From a virus, in the IMG/VR virus record IMGVR_UViG_3300028392_000300, positions 1 through 23,069 of that record: DNA of 23,069 bases; one strand, given 5' to 3'. Numbering within the stretch: position 1 is the stretch's first letter; each line of letters opens with the position of its first letter. The position numbers and the translations under genes are program-made. The notes beneath the pieces were generated by a model that saw only the letters and a program-made list of their open reading frames with translations, did no database searches and was not told the DNA's origin. Of the stretch, positions 8,732 through 23,069 are shown in pieces.

Positions 8732-8747
8732 TGTGAGTTACCTCACT
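8732..8747. promoter_or_regulatory. Crp/GlxR-like palindrome, one mismatch
   Basis: TGTGA-GTTACC-TCACT, overlapping the stop codon of the 76-aa gene at 8743. Confidence 0.45.
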
Positions 8748-8973
8748 CCCAACTACGAGTGGTAGCGTACACCTCACGCTTGCGTGGTGTAGGTACATCG
8801 CTGATACTAGCCTCTAGGATAGTACCTCTCTGAGCGACTAGGTCTAGGTAAGCCCAAGCCTGCTCCTCTGTATTGAATAGTACGCCTAAGCAGGTACCGC
8901 TCTGCTTAGATAGTGGATAAGCAGGGTCAGTATTGTATTCTACTGAGTATGCTAGTTTGATTGAGTTACTCAT
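8743..8973 (-). CDS. Hypothetical 76-aa protein
   Basis: MSNSIKLAYSVEYNTDPAYP; the middle LGVLFNTEEQAWAYLDLVAQ reads like a small domain that packs a helix against strands, and the end KREVYATTRSWE is basic. No family recognised. The ribosome-binding site is AAGAAAGGAGTTACA. It is the first gene of the leftward arm as transcribed in this window; promoter copy 12 lies upstream. Confidence 0.78.
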   Translation of the reverse strand: MSNSIKLAYSVEYNTDPAYPLSKQSGTCLGVLFNTEEQAWAYLDLVAQRGTILEASISDVPTPRKREVYATTRSWE

Positions 8974-9231: not shown

Positions 9232-9246
9232 TATAATGAGATTATG
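9232..9246 (+). promoter_or_regulatory. Leaderless promoter of the first oxygenase
   Basis: TATAAT (9232-9237), six bases, then the ATG of the oxygenase. No Shine-Dalgarno precedes the ATG, so transcription probably begins at or beside the start codon. There is no good -35. Confidence 0.65.
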
Positions 9247-9942
9247 TTTAAAGATTATAATCCTAACTATTTATGTGATGAAGTTTTTACAATTAAAAAC
9301 TTTCTTTCTAAAGACGAGTTGACAGAAATTTTTGTAGAATTAAATTCAGTTGACTGGGATAGTCTTGCTGAACCAACATATAGAAACTTTCAATCTCTTG
9401 CAAAATATAAATCCAGATTGGAAAAAATTTTAGAAGGTGAGAACCTTACAGCTAAAAATTTAAATTCTGTATTAAGGAAAAAGGGCGGGGAAGGCATGCG
9501 TCCACATATTGATATTATGAATTATATGAATAGATTTCTTGAAATTCAAGTAGATGAAAATTTTGATGGTTTTAAAGAAAAACATAGCATGGGAACATAT
9601 TCATTTATAATATATTTTAATGATAATTATACTGGTGGGGAAATATGTTATCCAGAATATGGAATAGAGTATAAACCAGAAGCTGGGGAAATGGTAATAC
9701 ATAGCTGTAAAGTTGTGCATGCTGTTAAAAAAGTTATAGACGGTTATAGATTTAATCTCTCAGACGTATTTGATGGATATATATATGTAGATGCTGAAAA
9801 ACTTAAAACTGTTAAAGAAATAGATCTCAGCAGACTAGATAAATCTGATCCATTATTTTATTATTCTTCACATCATGGCAAAACAGAAAATAAAAGATTT
9901 GCAAAATTTTTAGAAACATATGTAGAAAAAGGCGTATATTAA
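9244..9942 (+). CDS. Fe(II)/2-oxoglutarate-dependent oxygenase (prolyl-4-hydroxylase-like)
   Basis: 232 aa. The metal triad of the double-stranded beta-helix fold is visible: H88-I-D90 (RPHID) and H159 (VVHAVKK), with R169 (YRFNL) placed to bind 2-oxoglutarate. GGEICYPEYG (131-140) is the typical strand before the distal His. The N-terminal 80 residues form a helical cap with VFTIKNFLSKDEL, as in P4H-like phage proteins. The substrate is not readable; protein, nucleic acid or small molecule are all possible. Strongly AT-rich, with frequent ATA codons. Expressed from a leaderless promoter, the first gene right of the strand switch. Confidence 0.85.
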   Translation: MFKDYNPNYLCDEVFTIKNFLSKDELTEIFVELNSVDWDSLAEPTYRNFQSLAKYKSRLEKILEGENLTAKNLNSVLRKKGGEGMRPHIDIMNYMNRFLEIQVDENFDGFKEKHSMGTYSFIIYFNDNYTGGEICYPEYGIEYKPEAGEMVIHSCKVVHAVKKVIDGYRFNLSDVFDGYIYVDAEKLKTVKEIDLSRLDKSDPLFYYSSHHGKTENKRFAKFLETYVEKGVY

Positions 9943-10176
9943 ATAAAATCTCTTGACACAAGAAAATACTTAATGTTATAATTTTTCTAGGGGGGTCGGG
10001 GGGTCAGCAAATCAACAAATACAACAAATTATATATATTATATATATAAGACCTAAGACCTAAGATCAAGTGATACATAAAAATATATTTTACTATATGC
10101 AGATATTGTAGTCAACTAAAATATATAGTACAATAGAAATATGATAAAAACTTTTAATCGAATACGTTAGTCCCTA
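9943..10176. other. Non-coding gap with G-tracts and AT tract
   Basis: After the promoter at 9953 come two GGGGGGTC direct repeats (about 9990-10006), a run of alternating A/T (about 10028-10048) and AAGACCT repeated in tandem (about 10048-10062). A second promoter-like TTGTAG-N17-TACAAT (10106-10134) sits six bases before an ATG that opens only a 9-codon frame (10141-10170). No other gene is seen. Confidence 0.5.
9953..9982 (+). promoter_or_regulatory. Strong sigma-70-type promoter before the tRNA-Ile
   Basis: TTGACA (9953-9958), 18 nt, TATAAT (9977-9982). No convincing ORF starts in the next 150 nt, so the transcript would be a long leader or a non-coding RNA running into tRNA-Ile. Confidence 0.65.
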
Positions 10177-10251
10177 GGGGATATAGCTTAATTTGGTTAA
10201 AGCAATTGTCTTATATGCAATCGACTCTCGGTTCAAATCCGAGTATCCCTA
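10177..10251 (+). tRNA. tRNA-Ile (TAT), reads AUA
   Basis: Acceptor GGGGATA/TATCCCT (G1-T72), D arm GCTT/AAGC, anticodon stem ATTGT/GCAAT with loop CTTATAT (anticodon TAT), T arm CTCGG/CCGAG with loop TTCAAAT. It decodes AUA, a codon frequent in the AT-rich genes right of 9.2 kb and usually rare in actinobacterial hosts, so it probably serves phage translation. Confidence 0.9.
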
Positions 10252-10257
10252 CAATGC

Positions 10258-10272
10258 TATAATAATTATATG
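10258..10272 (+). promoter_or_regulatory. Leaderless promoter of the oxygenase operon
   Basis: TATAAT (10258-10263), six bases, ATG (10270). Same geometry as at 9232. Readthrough from the tRNA is also likely. Confidence 0.5.
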
Positions 10273-10359
10273 AACTGGGATTTCCTATGGGTAATTTTAT
10301 TTTTGGCGGGGATAGGAATAATTCTCTCAGCTCTTTGGGCAAGTTTGAAAGATTGGTAA
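10270..10359 (+). CDS. Tiny membrane protein, 29 aa
   Basis: MNWDFLWVILFLAGIGIIL, then SALWASLKDW: one transmembrane helix with aromatic ends. It begins six bases after TATAAT and has no Shine-Dalgarno. The next ORF starts 1 nt after its stop codon. Function unknown. Confidence 0.5.
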   Translation: MNWDFLWVILFLAGIGIILSALWASLKDW

Positions 10360-10360
10360 T

Positions 10361-10441
10361 ATGAAGAATCTTATTCTCAGAATATCATGGATAGCCATGT
10401 TAGCGTATATTGTTTACGCAGGTACTCATGGAGTTAAATAA
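10361..10441 (+). CDS. Tiny membrane protein, 26 aa
   Basis: MKNLILRISWIAMLAYIVYA then GTHGVK. It has a signal-like or transmembrane helix and a short tail. Its 3' end overlaps the start of the 100-aa gene by 14 nt. Function unknown; the two tiny membrane genes may work as a pair. Confidence 0.45.
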   Translation: MKNLILRISWIAMLAYIVYAGTHGVK

Positions 10442-10730
10442 AAAATATCTGGACAAATCTGTCCAGTCTGTCAATGCAATGAAATTATTTAACCATAATT
10501 ATTATTTATCTCAGGATTATGTCTGCAATGCTGCAGTAACGCCAATTCTAGAGGCTCTGGAAGGCTCTCTAAGCACTTGTTTAAATTTTGATGGATCCAA
10601 GTGTGACGTATGGTATCTAGAGAGCCATACGGGCTGTCTGCAGCTTATGCAGATTCTTAATGAATTAACTGGATATCCTATATGGGATAATAATCTTAGT
10701 CAACTAAAATTAAACATGGATAAATTCTAA
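10428..10730 (+). CDS. Hypothetical 100-aa protein in the oxygenase operon
   Basis: Chosen start MELNKKYLDKSVQSVNAM at 10428; a TTG frame from 10410 would only add six residues. It is a Cys-containing alpha/beta-looking protein, with SLSTCLNFDGSKCDVWYLES at about residues 48-67 and a C-terminal LNELTGYPIWDNN. No family recognised. Its stop overlaps the ATG of the monooxygenase (TAATG), so the two are translationally coupled and probably act together. Confidence 0.7.
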   Translation: MELNKKYLDKSVQSVNAMKLFNHNYYLSQDYVCNAAVTPILEALEGSLSTCLNFDGSKCDVWYLESHTGCLQLMQILNELTGYPIWDNNLSQLKLNMDKF

Positions 10731-11518
10731 TGAGATTTCATTGGATGATCCGTACTGAGGATAATACAGTAAATGGATTAAAAAAATTATCTGCTGAATT
10801 AGATGATTGTGGTATATATTCTTTATTACTTCCATATGGAGCTAATGATAATGATTACTTCTATAAATTACCTCTCGTTATTGATCCCACCCAAAAAATA
10901 AAATATTTAGTCGCTGTGCGACCATATGCTATCTCTCCTGAGTACGTCGGCGCACTTTTTCGCACCATAAATGAAATTAGTCCTAATAGAGTAATTCTTA
11001 ATATAGTATCTGGTAATTTTGATCCTGATATAGAGCCTGTACTTAAACATTATGTAGGAGATGTTTCTCAAATAGATACTATGAAAAAACGTGTTGAATA
11101 TACTGGCAAATGGCTAGAGCAATTCCATCAGATTATGGGCGATGCTTGTCCAGAAATTGTATTATCTGGATCTTCTAATAAAACCTTAGAAATAGCTGAC
11201 AAGTATGCCGATTACCATATGTTTATATTGCCAAGGTTAGAGAATGTAAAACAGTATGGAATTATCAATTCCCGCCGAATGTTATATGCTGCACCGTTGG
11301 TGCGAGATGACCCTTCTAAAATCGACGCACTACTTGACGGCATTAATACTATTTTTTATCATACTGTATTTTCTGGCAATAAAAATGAAGTATCTAATAA
11401 GATTAAATCTTTTGAATCTGATGGAATTACAGATATATTGTTTAATCATTTAGAATTTGATGATAGAATAGATTTAGTATACGATATGATTAAGGAGATA
11501 AATAATGAGACCATTTAA
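10730..11518 (+). CDS. Luciferase-like flavin-dependent monooxygenase (LLM family, SsuD-like)
   Basis: 262 aa, shorter than the usual 330-380 aa. Family traits visible: an opening strand (RFHWMIRT), LVAVRPYAISPEYVGALFRT (about residues 60-80), RVILNIVSGNFDP (89-101) and EIVLSGSSNKTLEIADKYAD (about 142-161), the order seen in alkanesulfonate/alkane monooxygenases, followed by a C-terminal helix pair. These enzymes use reduced FMN (F420 in some actinobacteria) with oxygen. A partner reductase is not seen. Coupled to the gene before it (TAATG) and overlapping the oxygenase after it by 14 nt. Substrate unknown. I am fairly sure of the superfamily and unsure of the reaction. Confidence 0.78.
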   Translation: MRFHWMIRTEDNTVNGLKKLSAELDDCGIYSLLLPYGANDNDYFYKLPLVIDPTQKIKYLVAVRPYAISPEYVGALFRTINEISPNRVILNIVSGNFDPDIEPVLKHYVGDVSQIDTMKKRVEYTGKWLEQFHQIMGDACPEIVLSGSSNKTLEIADKYADYHMFILPRLENVKQYGIINSRRMLYAAPLVRDDPSKIDALLDGINTIFYHTVFSGNKNEVSNKIKSFESDGITDILFNHLEFDDRIDLVYDMIKEINNETI

Positions 11519-12143
11519 AGATTTTGTTGAAACAGAAGAAATATTTCCAAATGTATTTTTGGTTAAAAATTTTTTATCTAATAAAGAATGCAAAGAAATT
11601 TTAAATTCAAAAACAGATAATTTTAATACAGAAGAAATTATTAAAAGTTTTTTTCAACTTAAAAAAAGTAATATTATAATTGATAGATTAAAAAATTATG
11701 TTATTGATGATTTAATTGTTTATGAATCAACTACAGGTAGTGTAATGAAAAAGGGATATTATCACCCAATACATGAAGACAATCCTCATGGCTATCTTGA
11801 TCGTGAAGCAAATTTATCCATTATCCCAGGAGAACCAATTACAAAATTAAAAAGTCATGCCTGGGGAACAGTTTTATATTTATCTAATTTTATGGGTGGC
11901 GAAATATTTTATCCAAATTATATGGAGTACTACTCACCGTCAGCAGGAGATCTTATCGTACATTCTTCAGAAGTAGATATGCCACACGGAACAATGAAAG
12001 CAAAAGATAATAATAGATACATTCATACTACATTTTTTTATAGATTACTAGATGTTCCTACAAAATACATTGAAGAAGGTTTAAAAAATGAATCTGATAT
12101 CATGAACGATAAATATGGTTGGCCAAAATGGCTTAATGTTTAA
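11505..12143 (+). CDS. Second Fe(II)/2-oxoglutarate-dependent oxygenase
   Basis: 212 aa. Metal ligands H90-E-D92 (PIHEDNPHG) and H161 (MPHGTMK), then R171 (NNRYIHTTFFY) for 2-oxoglutarate. GGEIFYPNYM (131-140) matches the equivalent strand of the 232-aa protein at 9244, so the two look like paralogues. The ribosome-binding site AAGGAG lies within the end of the monooxygenase gene and the ATG is 14 nt inside it, so the two should be co-expressed. Convergent with the leftward pair that ends at 12133. Confidence 0.85.
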   Translation: MRPFKDFVETEEIFPNVFLVKNFLSNKECKEILNSKTDNFNTEEIIKSFFQLKKSNIIIDRLKNYVIDDLIVYESTTGSVMKKGYYHPIHEDNPHGYLDREANLSIIPGEPITKLKSHAWGTVLYLSNFMGGEIFYPNYMEYYSPSAGDLIVHSSEVDMPHGTMKAKDNNRYIHTTFFYRLLDVPTKYIEEGLKNESDIMNDKYGWPKWLNV

Positions 12144-12297
12144 TCCAATGTTTTGGATTTAAAAAATAAATAATATTAAAAAATTTTGCTTCAATTTTTT
12201 TTTCAAGCAGCATTTCACTAGATTCTTCTTGAAAATGTTTTGTGTTTCTAAAAGAAGGACTTTGCATCATTCTTGAAAAATGTCTAGGCAAGGCCAT
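12133..12297 (-). CDS. Possible 54-aa protein at the end of the leftward oxygenase transcript
   Basis: MALPRHFSRMMQSPSFRNTK, then a Glu/Lys helix (HFQEESSEMLLEKKIEAKFF) and NPKHWIKH. Its start is 14 nt inside the end of the upstream oxygenase gene, with AAAAAGGA right before it (spacing short). It runs 11 nt into the tail of the convergent gene. No family recognised. Plausible but unproven. Confidence 0.45.
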   Translation of the reverse strand: MALPRHFSRMMQSPSFRNTKHFQEESSEMLLEKKIEAKFFNIIYFLNPKHWIKH

Positions 12298-13162
12298 GTT
12301 CCTTTTTATATTGATCTAATAAATCATCAAATTCAACATGCCCATATGCAGCAGAAAGATCTTCACCAAGCAAACCAGACTGTTTCATTTCAGCAAGTCT
12401 TTCTGGAGTAAACCTAGGATTTTTCTTTAATGGAGTAATCCATGTTTCAATTGCATCATGCCCCTTGTCCCCAATTTGCTCAATATATTCTGGGGTTCCA
12501 TAATTATAAAAAGTTCCGATATTGTCTGCTGCTGGAAGAGAAAAATTAGAAAATGCATAACGTATACCATCAGTTACTTCTCTAACTCCATGTTCAAATG
12601 GATGAAAGGCTGAATGAAGAACTACATCTCCTCTTTTTGGAGTATATTCAAAACATTTATCTGGTTCTGGCTCTTTGCCCGCCCACTCCTTACCCTCAGA
12701 ATTTAAGTTCGGATAAAAAAGTGCACCGCCTTCCCAAGTACCTACATATGCCACTAAACCAAAATCAATAATACAACAAGTTGACCATTTATCATCTTGT
12801 GAAAGTAAATGACACTGTCCTTTTCCAGGGCTATCTGAGTGAATAAACATACCGCCATCACCAGGCTTTACTTTAATTAATGATTGCGATGGATGAATTA
12901 CATATTCTGGTCCAATAAGTTCTGATAAGAATTCCCACATCTCATGCAATTGAGTTGGTCTGCCACTAACTTTATCTTCGTACCAAGGAATTAATCCTTC
13001 TGTATACTTAAATTCGCTAGAATCAAAAGAAGCAAGCTCTTCTTCCATAGATTGCATTAATTTTTCTGGTAAAACATTTTTAAATAAAAATATTCCACTT
13101 TTTGTTCCATATTCATCTACGTATGGAACTAAGTTAATACAATCTTCTCTGTCATAAAACAT
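12284..13162 (-). CDS. Third Fe(II)/2-oxoglutarate-dependent oxygenase
   Basis: 292 aa. Metal ligands H108-S-D110 (MFIHSDSPG) and H191 (FEHGVRE), then R201 (GIRYAFSNF). GGALFYPNLN (145-154) aligns with the GGE..YP strand of the other two oxygenases. It is longer, with a 100-residue N-terminal part and an 80-residue C-terminal extension (LKKNPRFTPERLAEMKQSG). The ribosome-binding site AAAGGAGC precedes ATG; an extended -10 (TGaTATAAT) on minus at 13195-13203 supplies a promoter. The substrate is not readable. It is on the opposite strand from the other two, so it is regulated separately. Confidence 0.85.
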   Translation of the reverse strand: MFYDREDCINLVPYVDEYGTKSGIFLFKNVLPEKLMQSMEEELASFDSSEFKYTEGLIPWYEDKVSGRPTQLHEMWEFLSELIGPEYVIHPSQSLIKVKPGDGGMFIHSDSPGKGQCHLLSQDDKWSTCCIIDFGLVAYVGTWEGGALFYPNLNSEGKEWAGKEPEPDKCFEYTPKRGDVVLHSAFHPFEHGVREVTDGIRYAFSNFSLPAADNIGTFYNYGTPEYIEQIGDKGHDAIETWITPLKKNPRFTPERLAEMKQSGLLGEDLSAAYGHVEFDDLLDQYKKEHGLA

Positions 13163-13253: not shown

Positions 13254-13263
13254 ATAAAAATAA

Positions 13264-13336
13264 TGCCCCATAGCTCAGTTGGTAGAGCGTCGCACTGTTA
13301 ATGCGAATGTCCCTGGATCGAGGCCAGGTGGGGCAG
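13264..13336 (+). tRNA. tRNA-Asn (GTT)
   Basis: Acceptor TGCCCCA/TGGGGCA, U8-A9, D arm GCTC/GAGC, anticodon stem TCGCA/TGCGA with loop CTGTTAA, T arm CCTGG/CCAGG with the unusual loop ATCGAGG (A in place of T54). No CCA encoded. Confidence 0.93.
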
Positions 13337-13340
13337 CAAA

Positions 13341-13413
13341 GTTCCCATAGCTCAGTTGGTAGAGCAGCAGACTTTTAATCTGCGGGTCGACAGTTCGAGC
13401 CTGTCTGGGTACA
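13341..13413 (+). tRNA. tRNA-Lys (TTT)
   Basis: Anticodon stem GCAGA/TCTGC with loop CTTTTAA, D arm GCTC/GAGC, T arm GACAG/CTGTC with loop TTCGAGC. The acceptor GTTCCCA/TGGGTAC has one mismatch (T3-T70). Only 4 nt after tRNA-Asn, so both come from one transcript. Confidence 0.92.
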
Positions 13414-13414
13414 C

Positions 13415-13520: not shown

Positions 13521-13708
13521 TCATTTTTTAATAAGTTTTTTAAAATTAATGCATCATAAACACTTTCTAATAAATATCCAATTGTTCCACGCATTGCTTC
13601 AATTTGAGATTTTGCTTCATCATCAGACATTCCTGATGTGCTTGCAAGAGAAAGATTTTTTTCTTGAAAAGCATCAATCATAATATCAATTATATCTTCT
13701 TTATTCAT
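13517..13708 (-). CDS. Hypothetical 63-aa helical protein
   Basis: Chosen start MNKEDIIDIMIDAFQEKN, 6 nt after AAAGG. An ATG two codons earlier (13714) abuts the ribosome-binding site. Two predicted helices: one with KEDIIDIMIDAFQEK, one with EAMRGTIGYLLESVYDALIL. No family recognised. It overlaps the 71-aa gene by 8 nt. Last gene of the lysis operon. Confidence 0.7.
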   Translation of the reverse strand: MNKEDIIDIMIDAFQEKNLSLASTSGMSDDEAKSQIEAMRGTIGYLLESVYDALILKNLLKND

Positions 13709-13916
13709 TTTCATCCTTTGGTGTATAAGATGGGCTGGGTCCTAATAGATAGCCCTGATTATGATATTCTACCATTTTAGCAGTATCATCTCCACCTACA
13801 ACTTTATTAGATATAAGAGTTAATAGGTCATAAATTCTATGTAACATTATATATGTCACCATAGGTAAATTTTCTTCTAGGTTAGAAGAATTTTCGTTAT
13901 TCTGGTCTTCCTGCAT
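13701..13916 (-). CDS. Hypothetical 71-aa protein
   Basis: MQEDQNNENSSNLEENLPMV has an Asn/Glu-rich start, a central helix (YIMLHRIYDLLTLISNKVVG) and a C-terminal YLLGPSPSYTPKDENE. No family recognised. GAGG lies 12 nt upstream of ATG. Overlaps the 40-aa gene by 20 nt and the 63-aa gene downstream. Confidence 0.65.
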   Translation of the reverse strand: MQEDQNNENSSNLEENLPMVTYIMLHRIYDLLTLISNKVVGGDDTAKMVEYHNQGYLLGPSPSYTPKDENE

Positions 13917-14019
13917 CTAGCCAAAAAACCTCTCTGCCCATAGCATCAGTAATCCGAATTGGTTCTGATTCTTTATTACATGTACAATCTATTGAATTAC
14001 ATTTTATTATTTTTTCCAT
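13897..14019 (-). CDS. Tiny Cys-rich protein, 40 aa
   Basis: MEKIIKCNSIDCTCNKESEP, then IRITDAMGREVFWLDAGRPE. CNSIDCTC could bind a metal, while the second half reads like a short beta-hairpin. The ribosome-binding site AAGAGG lies 9 nt before ATG. It overlaps both neighbours (23 and 20 nt). Confidence 0.65.
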   Translation of the reverse strand: MEKIIKCNSIDCTCNKESEPIRITDAMGREVFWLDAGRPE

Positions 14020-14221
14020 TAGATTCAACCTCTTTGACTATATTTTGATAAGTGTTTATTCCAATATAATTTTTATAATTACAATCCAAACAATACAAAT
14101 AAATATTATCTTTTAGATCTTGATTGCAAAAAAGAAAAGATTGGTCCATTGGGCATAAAAACCCATGAACCAATCCATCCTTCGACATGGAAATGTAAGT
14201 AGACACATATTGTATCCTCAT
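13997..14221 (-). CDS. Hypothetical 74-aa zinc-ribbon-like protein
   Basis: MRIQYVSTYISMSKDGLVHG, then FLCPMDQSFLFC (about residues 21-32) and YLYCLDCNYKNYIG (41-54). The pair CxxxxxxxxC and CxxC suggests a zinc ribbon. The ribosome-binding site AAAGGAGATGGG immediately precedes ATG. It sits 10 nt after the lysis gene. Confidence 0.72.
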   Translation of the reverse strand: MRIQYVSTYISMSKDGLVHGFLCPMDQSFLFCNQDLKDNIYLYCLDCNYKNYIGINTYQNIVKEVESNGKNNKM

Positions 14222-14231
14222 CCCATCTCCT

Positions 14232-14774
14232 TTACTTTGTCGGAAATTTTAAATAAAATTCCTTAGCTTTTGGGGTTAAACCCTTCCAAGCTGACCAATC
14301 AACTCCGCCATCGGTCATATAATACGTTATCTCTGCGTTTGTTACTGGGTCGAATAACTCTTTGTTACTCTTTAGATTAAATTTCTCTCTCCTATCAGGA
14401 CCAAGATTTCCAATCATATTAATTTGAAATAATCCATAAGAACTATCTCCTGTTTTCTTATTCCCATCGTAAGCAAGCGGTCTTCCATTAGATTCACGCT
14501 TTGCTATTGCCCAGGCCTTTTTAAGACCTGTTCCTTTGAACCCTACAGTCTTAAGAAGTGTTAACAACTTTTGATCCGTAAGCATCTCAGACGAACTGTA
14601 ACTTGCATTACTGAACTTGTCTAAGACTTCTTGCTTTAATTGGGCTTCAGTTTTCACTAAAGGTTTTACAGTAAGTGCATTAGCAGGCTGTACAGGAAAT
14701 AAAAATAATGTTACCATTATGATTATAGTCCAATCACGCACTAAATCGCTAAACTGTTGTTTTATTTTCTCCAT
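14232..14774 (-). CDS. Exported SLT-type lytic transglycosylase/lysozyme-like lysis protein
   Basis: Chosen start 14774 (MEKIKQQF): AAAGGAGG lies 8 nt upstream, whereas the ATG at 14780 is only 2 nt from it and 14837 has none. 180 aa: a positively charged start, a hydrophobic segment at about 14-30 and an Ala-x-Ala type end (QPANA) suggest a signal peptide. The catalytic domain shows AIAKRESNGRPLAY with probable catalytic E94, SYGLFQINM (112-120), AEITYYM and a C-terminal VDWSAWKG, the typical SLT/goose-lysozyme-like order. It should cut peptidoglycan glycan strands from outside the membrane, for lysis or as a virion-independent muralytic enzyme. Promoter at 14808-14837. Confidence 0.85.
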   Translation of the reverse strand: MEKIKQQFSDLVRDWTIIIMVTLFLFPVQPANALTVKPLVKTEAQLKQEVLDKFSNASYSSSEMLTDQKLLTLLKTVGFKGTGLKKAWAIAKRESNGRPLAYDGNKKTGDSSYGLFQINMIGNLGPDRREKFNLKSNKELFDPVTNAEITYYMTDGGVDWSAWKGLTPKAKEFYLKFPTK

Positions 14775-14807
14775 TGGCATTTCCTCCTTTAGAGACAACG
14801 TTCTATA

Positions 14808-14837
14808 ATAATAACATTGTTTATTAAATTGTGTCAA
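14808..14837 (-). promoter_or_regulatory. Promoter of the lysis operon
   Basis: Minus strand TTGACA (14837-14832), 18 nt, TATTAT (14813-14808), start near 14801, ribosome-binding site at 14790-14783. It faces away from the glycosyltransferase gene. Confidence 0.65.
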
Positions 14838-14860
14838 GTTGGTTGACTAGAAAGGAACGC

Positions 14861-15850
14861 ATGATAATATCATTTTTTACTCCAAATGTTAATTTAACCA
14901 GAGCAACTGGTTATGGTTATGCGTCTGCAAATATAATAGAATCATTACAATCTTTAGGACATAGAGTTGGATATGGATACCACAAAGCTCCAGTACAAAT
15001 AAATTTTTGTCAACCTTTTCAATTTAAATTACATAAAAATCAATATCAAATTGGATATACTCCTTGGGAATCAACTGTAATTCCAGAAACTTGGAAATCA
15101 AATATGAATTTAGTTGATGAATATTGGGCAACTTCTGAATGGAACGCAGAAGTTTTTGAAAATGCTGGAATTAAAAAACCAATTACAGTTTTTCCTCATG
15201 GCATAGATGCAATTTGGAAACCTAAAAAAAGAGAACAAAAAGAAGTTTTAAAATTTTTACATGTTGGAGAGCCAGCGCCAAGAAAAGCAGGGCAAATGGT
15301 TGTTGATGCATTTGGTTTTCTTTTTGGGAATAACCCTAATTATTCATTAACAATAAAAGCTCATTTAAATAATACAACAAGAGTATATGATAATTATATT
15401 GATAAAAACATTATAGGTCTTCCAAATAATATTTACAATAATGTAAAAATAATAACAGAAGAATTACCAGAAGATCAATTAGTTCAACTATATCATGATC
15501 ATGATGTTTTAATTTATCCAAGTTATGGAGAAGGATTTGGATTTATTCCATTACAAGCTTTAGCAACTGGAATGCCAACAATATGCACTGCAGGTTGGGC
15601 GCATTATGGAAAATTTTTAGGACCATTAAAATTAAAATCACATTTAATTAAATCTCCATTTATGAATCTAGATGGATTAGTTTTTGAACCAGACTATCAA
15701 CATCTACTTGAACTTATGCAAGATGTTGCAATAGATTTTAAAGCATATTCAGGATACTATTATGCTCAGTCAACTAAAATTCATGAAGAGTATAATTGGT
15801 TGCAGTTAACTAATAATGCATTTGGTAATATTTTTAAAAATTTTTCTTAA
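14861..15850 (+). CDS. GT4-type glycosyltransferase
   Basis: Chosen start 14861 (MIISFFTPNV), after AGAAAGGAACGC; an upstream ATG in frame (14831) has no ribosome-binding site. 329 aa, GT-B fold: an N-terminal Rossmann-type half with GYGYASANIIESLQSLGH (17-34), a C-terminal half starting KFLHVGEPAPRKAG (131-144), HGID at 113-116, and the nucleotide-sugar site YGEGFGFIPLQALATG (222-237). In the EX7E motif the second Glu is Gln232. It could glycosylate phage DNA, a virion protein or the host surface; nothing here decides. Very AT-rich. Confidence 0.88.
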   Translation: MIISFFTPNVNLTRATGYGYASANIIESLQSLGHRVGYGYHKAPVQINFCQPFQFKLHKNQYQIGYTPWESTVIPETWKSNMNLVDEYWATSEWNAEVFENAGIKKPITVFPHGIDAIWKPKKREQKEVLKFLHVGEPAPRKAGQMVVDAFGFLFGNNPNYSLTIKAHLNNTTRVYDNYIDKNIIGLPNNIYNNVKIITEELPEDQLVQLYHDHDVLIYPSYGEGFGFIPLQALATGMPTICTAGWAHYGKFLGPLKLKSHLIKSPFMNLDGLVFEPDYQHLLELMQDVAIDFKAYSGYYYAQSTKIHEEYNWLQLTNNAFGNIFKNFS

Positions 15851-15932: not shown

Positions 15933-17867
15933 ATGTCAAAATCTATTGAAAACCCCTATGAAAATTTTATTGCGTTGTCCAGGTATGCAAGATGGATATC
16001 AGAAGACAATCGTCGTGAAACATGGAGTGAAACAGTAGATAGATACTTTAACTTTATGTTAAATCATTTAAAAGAAAATTATAATTATATACCAAACGAA
16101 AAATTAGTTTTAGAATTAAAAAATAATGTATTTGAGCGAAATATTATGCCATCAATGCGTTCTGTTATGACTTCTGGTGTCGCATTGGAAAGAGATAACG
16201 TAGCAGGCTATAATTGTGCTTTTCTTCCAGTAGACTCTCCCCGTTCATTTGATGAGACGATGTATATTCTTATGTGCGGAACAGGAGTAGGTTTTTCTGT
16301 TGAGTATAAATATATTAACAAGCTCCCAGCAGTTCCAGAAACACTAGAAAAATCTACAACTGTAATTACGGTAGAAGATTCAAAACAAGGATGGGCAAAA
16401 GCATATCGTGAATTATTAGCTTTACTTTGGTCTGGCCAAATTCCATCAATAGATGTTTCTAAAGTTCGCCCAGCAGGCGCAAGACTTAAAACAATGGGTG
16501 GACGTTCTTCTGGGCCACAACCCTTAATTAATTTATTTGATTTTACAATTGCAAAATTTAAAAATGCGACAGGCAGAAATTTAAAACCAATTGAATGTCA
16601 TGATATTATGTGTAAAATTGGTGAAGTTGTTGTTGTCGGCGGAGTTCGCAGATCAGCAATGATATCCCTTTCAAATATTAATGATATTGAAATGGCACAA
16701 GCTAAATCAGGAAATTGGTGGGAAGCCAGCCCCCAACGTTCTTTATCTAACAATTCTGTAGCGTATTCCCGTAAGCCAGACATGGAGCAATTTATTGCAG
16801 AATGGAAATCTTTATACGATTCTAAATCTGGAGAACGTGGAATTTATAATGTAGCAGCAGCACAAGCACAAGCAGCAAAATATGGACGCAGAGACCCTAA
16901 TATTCATTATGGCACCAACCCATGCTCAGAAATTATTCTTCGCCCGTATCAATTTTGTAACCTTTCAGAAGTTGTATTGCGTGAAAATGATACAAAAGAA
17001 AATATTAAACGTAAAGTAGAATTGGCTACAATTCTTGGTACTTGGCAATCTACTTTAACTGATTTTAAATATATTCGCAAAATTTGGAAAGATAATACAG
17101 AAGAAGAACGTTTATTGGGTGTATCTTTAACTGGACAGTTTGGTCATCAGTTTATGTCAGGTAAACAAGATCTTATTTCATTAGAAGCATTTTTAATGAC
17201 TCTTAGGGAATCAGCAAGAGCAAAAAATAAAGATGAGGCTGGGAAAATTGGGATTCCTGAGTCTGCAGCTATTACTTGTGTAAAACCATCAGGAACAGTG
17301 TCTCAATTGGTCGGGGTATCTTCAGGTATGCATGCATGGCATTCTCCATATTATATTAGAACAGTTCGTGGTTCAAAAACAGATCCAATTTCAACATTTT
17401 TAAAAGAAGTTGGTATACCTGTTGAAGATGATGTAATGAAACCAAATGATACATATGTATTTTCATTTCCTGTAAAAGCTCCAGAAGGAGCAATTGTTAG
17501 AAATGATTTAACTGCTATTGAGCATTTAAACATTTGGCTAGTTTATCAACGTGCTTGGTGTGAACATAAACCATCAATTACTGTTTCTGTAAAAGAAGAT
17601 GAATGGATGGAAGTTGGCGCATGGGTTTATAAACATTTTGATGAGGTATCTGGAATTTCTTTCTTGCCACATTCTGATCATTCATATAAACAAGCACCAT
17701 ATCAAGAAATTAATGAAAAAGAATATAAAGATTTGGTAAATCAAATGCCTAAAGAAATTCGTTGGGAAGATTTATCATTTTACGAGCTTGAGGATGGAAC
17801 ATCTACCAATGCCACCTTAGCTTGCAGTTCAGATGGAAATTGTGAACTGGTAGATATTTCAGCTTAG
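15933..17867 (+). CDS. nrdJ: Adenosylcobalamin-dependent (class II) ribonucleotide reductase
   Basis: 644 aa, single-subunit type related to the Lactobacillus leichmannii triphosphate reductase (739 aa there, so this copy is about 95 residues shorter). Visible: C95 in YNCAFLP and C342 in QFCNLSE as the redox pair, C331 and E333 in NPCSE (thiyl radical and acid), an 11-residue gap from C331 to C342 as in the model enzyme, VGGVRRSAMI (235-244), CGTGVGFSVE (115-124), KPSGTVSQLVG (451-461) and the C-terminal swinging pair C631/C637. It makes deoxynucleotides for phage DNA synthesis using host B12; no thioredoxin gene is seen. Ribosome-binding site AAAAGG. Confidence 0.95.
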   Translation: MSKSIENPYENFIALSRYARWISEDNRRETWSETVDRYFNFMLNHLKENYNYIPNEKLVLELKNNVFERNIMPSMRSVMTSGVALERDNVAGYNCAFLPVDSPRSFDETMYILMCGTGVGFSVEYKYINKLPAVPETLEKSTTVITVEDSKQGWAKAYRELLALLWSGQIPSIDVSKVRPAGARLKTMGGRSSGPQPLINLFDFTIAKFKNATGRNLKPIECHDIMCKIGEVVVVGGVRRSAMISLSNINDIEMAQAKSGNWWEASPQRSLSNNSVAYSRKPDMEQFIAEWKSLYDSKSGERGIYNVAAAQAQAAKYGRRDPNIHYGTNPCSEIILRPYQFCNLSEVVLRENDTKENIKRKVELATILGTWQSTLTDFKYIRKIWKDNTEEERLLGVSLTGQFGHQFMSGKQDLISLEAFLMTLRESARAKNKDEAGKIGIPESAAITCVKPSGTVSQLVGVSSGMHAWHSPYYIRTVRGSKTDPISTFLKEVGIPVEDDVMKPNDTYVFSFPVKAPEGAIVRNDLTAIEHLNIWLVYQRAWCEHKPSITVSVKEDEWMEVGAWVYKHFDEVSGISFLPHSDHSYKQAPYQEINEKEYKDLVNQMPKEIRWEDLSFYELEDGTSTNATLACSSDGNCELVDISA

Positions 17868-22676: not shown

Positions 22677-23069
22677 TTGCCATTTAATATTTTTAATGGT
22701 TCCTCATGGAATCCATTAAAAAAAGCAAAAATTTATGATGGTAGCTCTTGGCAAGACGCCAAAGCTATTAGCATTTATGATGGCTCGACATGGCAAAAAA
22801 TTTCTTCCTCTGTTCCAGAAAACACAGTTGCACCAACTATAATTTGGCAACAATATAATGGATCAAACGATTATGGAGTTGGTCAAACGGTTTCAGTTAA
22901 TACTGGTACATGGACAAATAATACTTCAATAACTTTTACTTATCAATGGTATATAGCTCCATATACAACTAATGCTACAAAAAATTGGATGGTAATTATT
23001 GGAGCCAACTCTTCAACATTTACTATACCAGCAGACTCAACTTATGTTGGATATTTAATAAAATGTGTA
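22677..23069 (+). CDS. Tail/fibre protein, partial (runs off the window)
   Basis: 131 codons up to the window edge. TTG start, chosen because AGGAG lies 6 nt upstream and no ATG is near. PFNIFNGSSWNPLKKAKIYD shows the repeated motif G.SW....K.IYDG.SW (three copies by residue 42). After that comes an Ig-like segment, VAPTIIWQQYNGSNDYGVG and ITFTYQWYIAPYTT. Repeat plus Ig-like domain is typical of actinophage minor tail proteins. The C-terminus is missing. Confidence 0.75.
   Translation, partial: MPFNIFNGSSWNPLKKAKIYDGSSWQDAKAISIYDGSTWQKISSSVPENTVAPTIIWQQYNGSNDYGVGQTVSVNTGTWTNNTSITFTYQWYIAPYTTNATKNWMVIIGANSSTFTIPADSTYVGYLIKCV

Follow-up and report, generated by a model that had tools for sequence, protein, structure and literature searches.

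Oxygenase island in the cargo bay of a freshwater actinophage and its possible role in tailoring repeat-bearing tail fibers

The virus record IMGVR_UViG_3300028392_000300 (23,069 bases, ending at 23069, and referred to here in full as the window; G+C content, 35.5%) carries an island of three 2-oxoglutarate (2OG)/Fe(II) oxygenases, a compact luciferase-like monooxygenase (LLM), and a small protein, and this island sits in a cargo bay that is hypervariable among freshwater actinophages. The three prolyl-4-hydroxylase (P4H)-like oxygenases and the LLM may form a local variant of an enzyme kit that tailors the fiber of the phage itself, a proposal to which we assign a probability of roughly 0.45. 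In relatives, operons of four to eight 2OG genes lie beside Fn3 fiber genes with tandem Pro/Phe repeats (FFxPP). The island comprises the following genes:

9244 to 9942, plus strand: OXa, 2OG/Fe(II) oxygenase, P4H-like by homology, 232 amino acids (PHROG 2297, 4e-10; family hidden Markov model [HMM], 144.6 bits)
10410 or 10428 to 10730, plus strand: U, small protein with a conserved C..C..H..C pattern (24 family matches in relatives, on both strands)
10730 to 11518, plus strand: compact LLM, 262 amino acids (PF00296; MsuD/SfnG fold, Z 23)
11505 to 12143, plus strand: OXb, 2OG/Fe(II) oxygenase, P4H-like by homology, 212 amino acids (PF13640, 7.6e-4, under the cutoff; family HMM, 150.6 bits)
12284 to 13162, minus strand: OXc, 2OG/Fe(II) oxygenase, 292 amino acids (262 viral relatives; the most widespread member of the bay)

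The relatives include 80 fetched viral contigs whose class II ribonucleotide reductase (RNR) is 83 to 95% identical to that of the window; contigs, cited here by L or G number, are fragments, so the absence of a gene or repeat from them is uncertain. The 2OG operon lies immediately downstream of a fiber gene that contains tandem repeats (for example, FFAPPGFFAPPS) in L227, L235, L202, L262, and L242, and the layout is identical in L273 to L281 and L285. Every operon of four to eight 2OG genes whose upstream side was read (those contigs) adjoins a Pro/Phe-repeat fiber gene, and Fn3 domains are present in those repeat fibers that were scanned. Among 31 contigs, which are related to one another, the number of PF13640 genes per contig was 0 to 13 (median, 8) with the repeat and 0 to 3 without it (Mann-Whitney P = 2e-5), and at least five such genes were found in 17 of the 19 repeat contigs and in none of the 12 others (P = 6e-7). 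The distance between the repeat array and its closest 2OG domain is 0.6 to 2.4 kb in all 13 contigs measured.

Repeat type also follows enzyme type. Of 41 contigs, 3 have the FxFTP repeat, and all three are among the five with a cytochrome P450: G005 and G007, scored as repeat negative in the 31-contig count, and G038, outside that count. The P450 contigs L017, L028, and L040 have fiber repeats of the FxFTP type. An Asp/Asn beta-hydroxylase (PF05118, 47 bits) and, weakly, JmjC_2 are also found at repeat-fiber loci. Phage-encoded P450s were seen in L017, L019, L028, L040, and L318 (207 to 249 bits). The fiber C termini of L016, L021, L014, L202, and L227 carry a Hint/intein-like domain, with a Cys directly following the Pro/aromatic repeat; its match to PF14890 is weak (21.1 bits against a cutoff of 35.8) and indicates resemblance rather than membership. 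This domain may cut or attach the fiber.

The window itself ends in a gene of this kind:

22677 to 23069, plus strand: truncated fiber gene N terminus, 131 residues, running off the contig end

The product is 38 to 42% identical (E values of 1e-18 to 1e-27) to the N termini of proteins of 800 to 1,146 amino acids in L014, L016, L017, L020, L021, L028, L035, and L038, all of which have Pro/aromatic repeats, and the bays read for these eight relatives each hold 2OG or P450 cargo. By this homology the product is assigned to the N-terminal domain of the Pro/aromatic-repeat fiber family, and the window phage probably has a repeat fiber of the same sort.

Coordinates, overlaps, and HxD..H..R residues of the five island open reading frames (ORFs) were checked and agree with an earlier, sequence-only reading of the island. 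All island genes are conserved and homologous elsewhere, so that chance ORFs are excluded. That reading had given the three oxygenases a common triad and GGx(x)FYP strand. The triad is present in OXa (H88/D90, H159, and R169), OXb (H90/D92, H161, and R171), and OXc (H108/D110, H191, and R201); the FYP strand is present in OXb (GGEIFYP) and OXc (GGALFYP) but not in OXa (GGEICYP). The H, D, H, and R are each at least 90% conserved, and GG is invariant, in an alignment of 20 relatives; in OXc, all four residues are invariant among 16 sequences. The predicted model of OXc (predicted local distance difference test score [pLDDT], 82) matches algal P4H, PHD2, and Bacillus anthracis P4H at a Z of about 12. 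By residues and modeled fold, OXc is a P4H-like 2OG oxygenase whose double-stranded beta-helix core bears the HxD...H metal triad and the distal Arg; OXa and OXb are placed in the same class by homology.

In a Pfam scan, all three proteins missed the PF13640 cutoff of 27 (OXb, 20.8; OXc, 16.2; OXa, no match). The family was matched by 14 of 20 relatives (best, 3.6e-13), and homologues in related contigs pass the cutoff, so that the oxygenase assignment is made at the superfamily level. The PHROG label "DNA endonuclease" for the 2OG family is treated as a misnomer. Scans of viral contigs with single LLM, U, or OXb proteins returned no relatives, so that alignments were required, and cultured phages gave no usable relatives of the LLM, OXb, or OXc.

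The LLM exceeds the PF00296 cutoff (39.3 versus 27.9 bits), and its AlphaFold2 model (pLDDT, 83) matches MsuD with a Z of 23.3 and a root mean square deviation of 2.9 over 250 residues; MsuD, SfnG, and SsuD are the closest solved structures (Z 22 to 23 across approximately 250 residues). It is a genuine compact PF00296 member, with a modeled fold closest to MsuD/SfnG. The earlier LLM call, which had been left for structure to decide, is thus upheld. Flavin mononucleotide (FMN) and F420 are both candidate cofactors, as the protein also matches short F420 enzymes (KvPepI, Z 21) and, weakly, TIGR03856. A ten-member alignment of LLMs, used as the query, retrieved 149 viral relatives. The proposed overlap linkage of U and the LLM to the second oxygenase was verified, U and the LLM sharing 1 base (TAATG) and the LLM and OXb sharing 14 nucleotides. 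The C..C..H..C pattern of U appears zinc-like. U had been paired with the LLM, but this 100-amino-acid protein was ruled out as a partner, since its homologues are found in numerous relatives, most of them lacking an LLM.

The proposed substrate, residues, order and chemistry of steps, and benefit are as follows. OXa, OXb, and OXc would hydroxylate residues, most simply proline, within the low-complexity Pro/aromatic repeats of the fiber; the LLM, the frame of which overlaps that of OXb, would carry out another oxidation or a reduction of that polymer. In relatives, these steps would be supplemented or replaced by the action of halogenase, P450, sulfotransferase, methyltransferase, and glycosyltransferase, and the outcome would be a phage surface quick to change through enzyme swapping. 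Besides the adjacency of 2OG operons to repeat fibers, the PF13640 richness of repeat contigs, and the match between repeat type and enzyme type, tailoring of the fiber is suggested by the best matches of OXc, which are prolyl hydroxylases, and by the membership of other enzymes at these loci in protein-hydroxylase families. It is also suggested by the homology between the last gene of the window and repeat fibers from contigs that hold 2OG or P450 cargo, and by the linkage of LLM to 2OG genes together with the known action of LLMs on ribosomal peptides (LanJC, PMC7268733). The sequence-only reading had proposed that one substrate may be modified stepwise, which fits operons of four to eight genes; it named protein only generically, and the repeat fiber is better supported.

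Several observations weigh against tailoring of the fiber. Traced along the RNR tree, the repeat shows five changes and the multi-2OG state six, and about five independent changes underlie the association; all four differing independent pairs agree (P = 0.125), a number with which significance is unreachable. L005 appears to have a proline-rich fiber repeat and a bay without 2OG, and in L003 and L093, the closest long RNR relatives, FFxPP repeats and 2OG operons are both absent. Some LLMs occur in bays without 2OG (L015 and L090 types). The window stops before any repeat, and a repeat of its own would lie past the contig end.

Linkage between LLM and 2OG genes was assessed with 92 LLMs from the fetched loci, grouped into 32 clusters at 75% identity. 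A 2OG/JmjC gene lies within 1 kb of the LLM in 19 clusters and within 5 kb in 28, and the 1-kb criterion is expected at approximately 17% of positions, as estimated from 13 long 2OG-rich contigs (P = 6e-8; 4e-5 at 1.5 times the background); this background is a rough estimate, and the LLM alignment was seeded in part with sequences identified via OXc. Several lineages share the order 2OG-DUF6065-2OG (three to five copies)-OXc-LLM. The genes therefore do not occur apart and at random, a pattern that would have spoken against a joint function. The linkage and the conserved operon order also argue against the bay as a collection of unrelated accessory genes, in which each of the three oxygenases and the LLM would have a substrate of its own and their proximity would be accidental. 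That explanation, which we consider unlikely, draws on the high turnover of the bay, on the presence of 2OG in just one of three LLM bay types, and on the finding that OXb is not orthologous to the LLM-adjacent 2OG gene of L098, an orthology that was tried and rejected. An obligate LLM-2OG pair was likewise rejected, as the L015 and L090 bays hold an LLM, DUF6065, and an HNH-like gene without 2OG.

DUF6065 is repeatedly found next to LLM or 2OG genes, in the L015, L085, and L090 bays and in the 2OG operons of L227, L235, and L262, and is a candidate for a missing step. In L096 to L100, an ORF with FLAGA repeats adjoins the LLM on the minus strand at approximately 5.5 to 5.8 kb of the locus, and L083 has an AKKKAP-repeat protein on the plus strand at this position; both probably represent a single lysine-rich, DNA-binding-like gene, read on one strand or the other.

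In relatives, the bay consists of 3 to 8 kb of exchangeable genes, bordered on one side by small conserved genes on the minus strand and on the other by a lysozyme/RNR block. In the window, its surroundings are as follows:

8743 to 8973, minus strand: left flank marker of the bay (homologues border the bay in relatives)
10177 to 10252, plus strand: tRNA-Ile(tat), within the bay (ARAGORN)
13264 to 13414, plus strand: tRNA-Asn and tRNA-Lys, right side of the bay (ARAGORN)
13701 to 14221, minus strand: two small conserved genes, right edge of the bay (in approximately 70 related contigs)
14232 to 14837, minus strand: lysozyme-like protein, right anchor of the bay (PF18896, 50.6 bits; 78 homologues in relatives)
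14831 to 15850, plus strand: family-4-type glycosyltransferase (PF00534, PHROG 2170; seldom with 2OG cargo in relatives)
15933 to 17867, plus strand: class II RNR (PHROG 367; 66% identity to Streptomyces phage Anedea; backbone marker for the tree)

The window backbone (DUF932, Gp88, glycosyltransferase, and class II RNR) is similar to that of Streptomyces phages, e.g., Anedea, and the host is presumably a freshwater actinobacterium. The tRNA-Asn region (13261 to 13311) is 98 to 100% identical to a Lactococcus phage tRNA-Asn (P087 group), the sole near DNA match of the window among cultured phages.

Among 26 distinct bays, 17 have a 2OG or JmjC-like gene, 10 have OXc, and 3 have an LLM. Other cargo in relatives includes tryptophan halogenase (341 bits), P450 (242 bits), sulfotransferases, TylF-like methyltransferases, DUF6065, a DXD-type glycosyltransferase, and additional 2OGs, and small genes of an apparently HNH-like family are common. 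A tryptophan halogenase near OXc forms a recurrent set in L014, L020, L021, L022, L030, and L205, the first five of which also have a membrane-like ORF of 92 to 96 amino acids.

Such cargo could instead alter a host or cell surface polymer (glycan, teichoic acid, or glycolipid), leading to a superinfection block or changed adsorption, with the linkage to fibers reflecting a shared location in the late region. The bay often contains sulfotransferases, TylF-like and FkbM-like methyltransferases, and glycosyltransferases, and it adjoins the lysozyme and glycosyltransferase genes. However, members of the P4H, Asp/Asn-hydroxylase, and JmjC families usually hydroxylate proteins, 2OG operons go together with the fiber repeat, and the glycosyltransferase gene that separates lysozyme from RNR tends to be missing where 2OG cargo is present. 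This exclusion (P = 7e-6 by count) is weak on the tree, with approximately three pairs, and is a hint only; the window has both. Modification of a surface polymer is thus doubtful as the function of the island.

Auxiliary metabolism, in which the LLM desulfonates alkanesulfonates and the 2OG enzymes alter small molecules or 2OG levels to supply the phage with sulfur or carbon, is improbable. The closest solved folds (MsuD, SfnG, and SsuD) would suit it, and it is the customary proposal for cyanophage 2OG genes (PMC9602691), but phage LLMs form a compact clade without the hairpin and lid of full-length SsuD relatives. Positions aligned with the pocket residues Cys54, Arg226, His228, and Arg297 of SsuD are not conserved or are deleted. 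Identity as an SsuD/MsuD alkanesulfonate monooxygenase was accordingly rejected, with TIGR03565 scoring 43.5 of the 518.2 bits required. No TauD-type match was found for the three oxygenases at an E value of ≤1 in the Pfam scan, and the sulfur module suggested from sequence is not supported. No flavin reductase was found among the window proteins scanned, and 2OG operons adjoin structural genes. Hypermodification of phage DNA nucleobases via TET/JBP-like steps, which had also been suggested, would fit the 2OG fold and a weak Tet_JBP match in 4 of 20 aligned relatives (best, 1.2e-5) but is very improbable, as none of the window's three oxygenases matches Tet_JBP (PF12851) at an E value of ≤1 in the Pfam scan, PF13640 is the main family, and the relatives' genes sit with fiber genes.

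More broadly, we tentatively suggest that freshwater actinophages possess a multienzyme posttranslational pathway (4 to 13 2OG hydroxylases plus LLM, halogenase, P450, and sulfo- and methyltransferases) acting on their own tail fiber repeats, with enzyme sets matched to the repeat sequence and yielding chemically nonstandard adhesins. Phage 2OG oxygenases abound in aquatic viromes and, as PMC9602691 says of cyanophages, have had no known substrate; the association with repeats provides a concrete and testable one. If the suggestion is correct, phages make hydroxylated, halogenated, or sulfated fibers, with an effect on host recognition, such phages are a source of protein-tailoring enzymes, and the role of viral 2OG oxygenases is answerable via virion proteomics. 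In the open-license literature, we found no report tying phage 2OG genes to repeat fibers and nothing relevant on phage fibers with hydroxyproline or on halogenase, 2OG, and sulfotransferase genes together in phages.

The presence of several 2OG genes in one phage genome is already published. Cyanophage S-SCSM1 has 24 2OG-Fe(II) oxygenase genes (PMC9602691), which does not support single genes as the norm in aquatic phages, and, like the window's relatives, combines many diverse PF13640-type genes in one aquatic phage; it differs in host group and is interpreted as reprogramming metabolism, and the available passages name no repeat-fiber link and no LLM. Pelagiphages of the HTVC023P type also colocate several nonorthologous 2OG genes (PMC9599517), but their partner is ferrochelatase, whereas here the partners are LLM, DUF6065, sulfotransferase, and fiber genes. 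The phage LLM shares the barrel of the FMNH2-dependent monooxygenases MsuD, SsuD, and SfnG and has a weak SsuD profile match but, at 262 amino acids, lacks their hairpin, lid, and catalytic-pocket positions. The collagen prolyl hydroxylase of PBCV-1 and the P4H of B. anthracis act on proline in proteins and are close in fold to the OXc model (5c5t, Z 11.8; 5hv0, Z 12.2); these are single enzymes of a eukaryotic virus or a bacterium, unlike the paralogues found here in tailed phages with an aromatic-proline repeat. LanJC lanthipeptide reductases are PF00296 enzymes acting on ribosomal-peptide residues, but they belong to bacterial gene clusters for ribosomally synthesized and posttranslationally modified peptides (PMC7268733), and no such precursor was identified here. 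An F420-dependent LLM is likewise carried on a virus contig of soil ammonia-oxidizing archaea; in the passage available from PMC11849493, it is interpreted in terms of electron transport, with no 2OG link stated.

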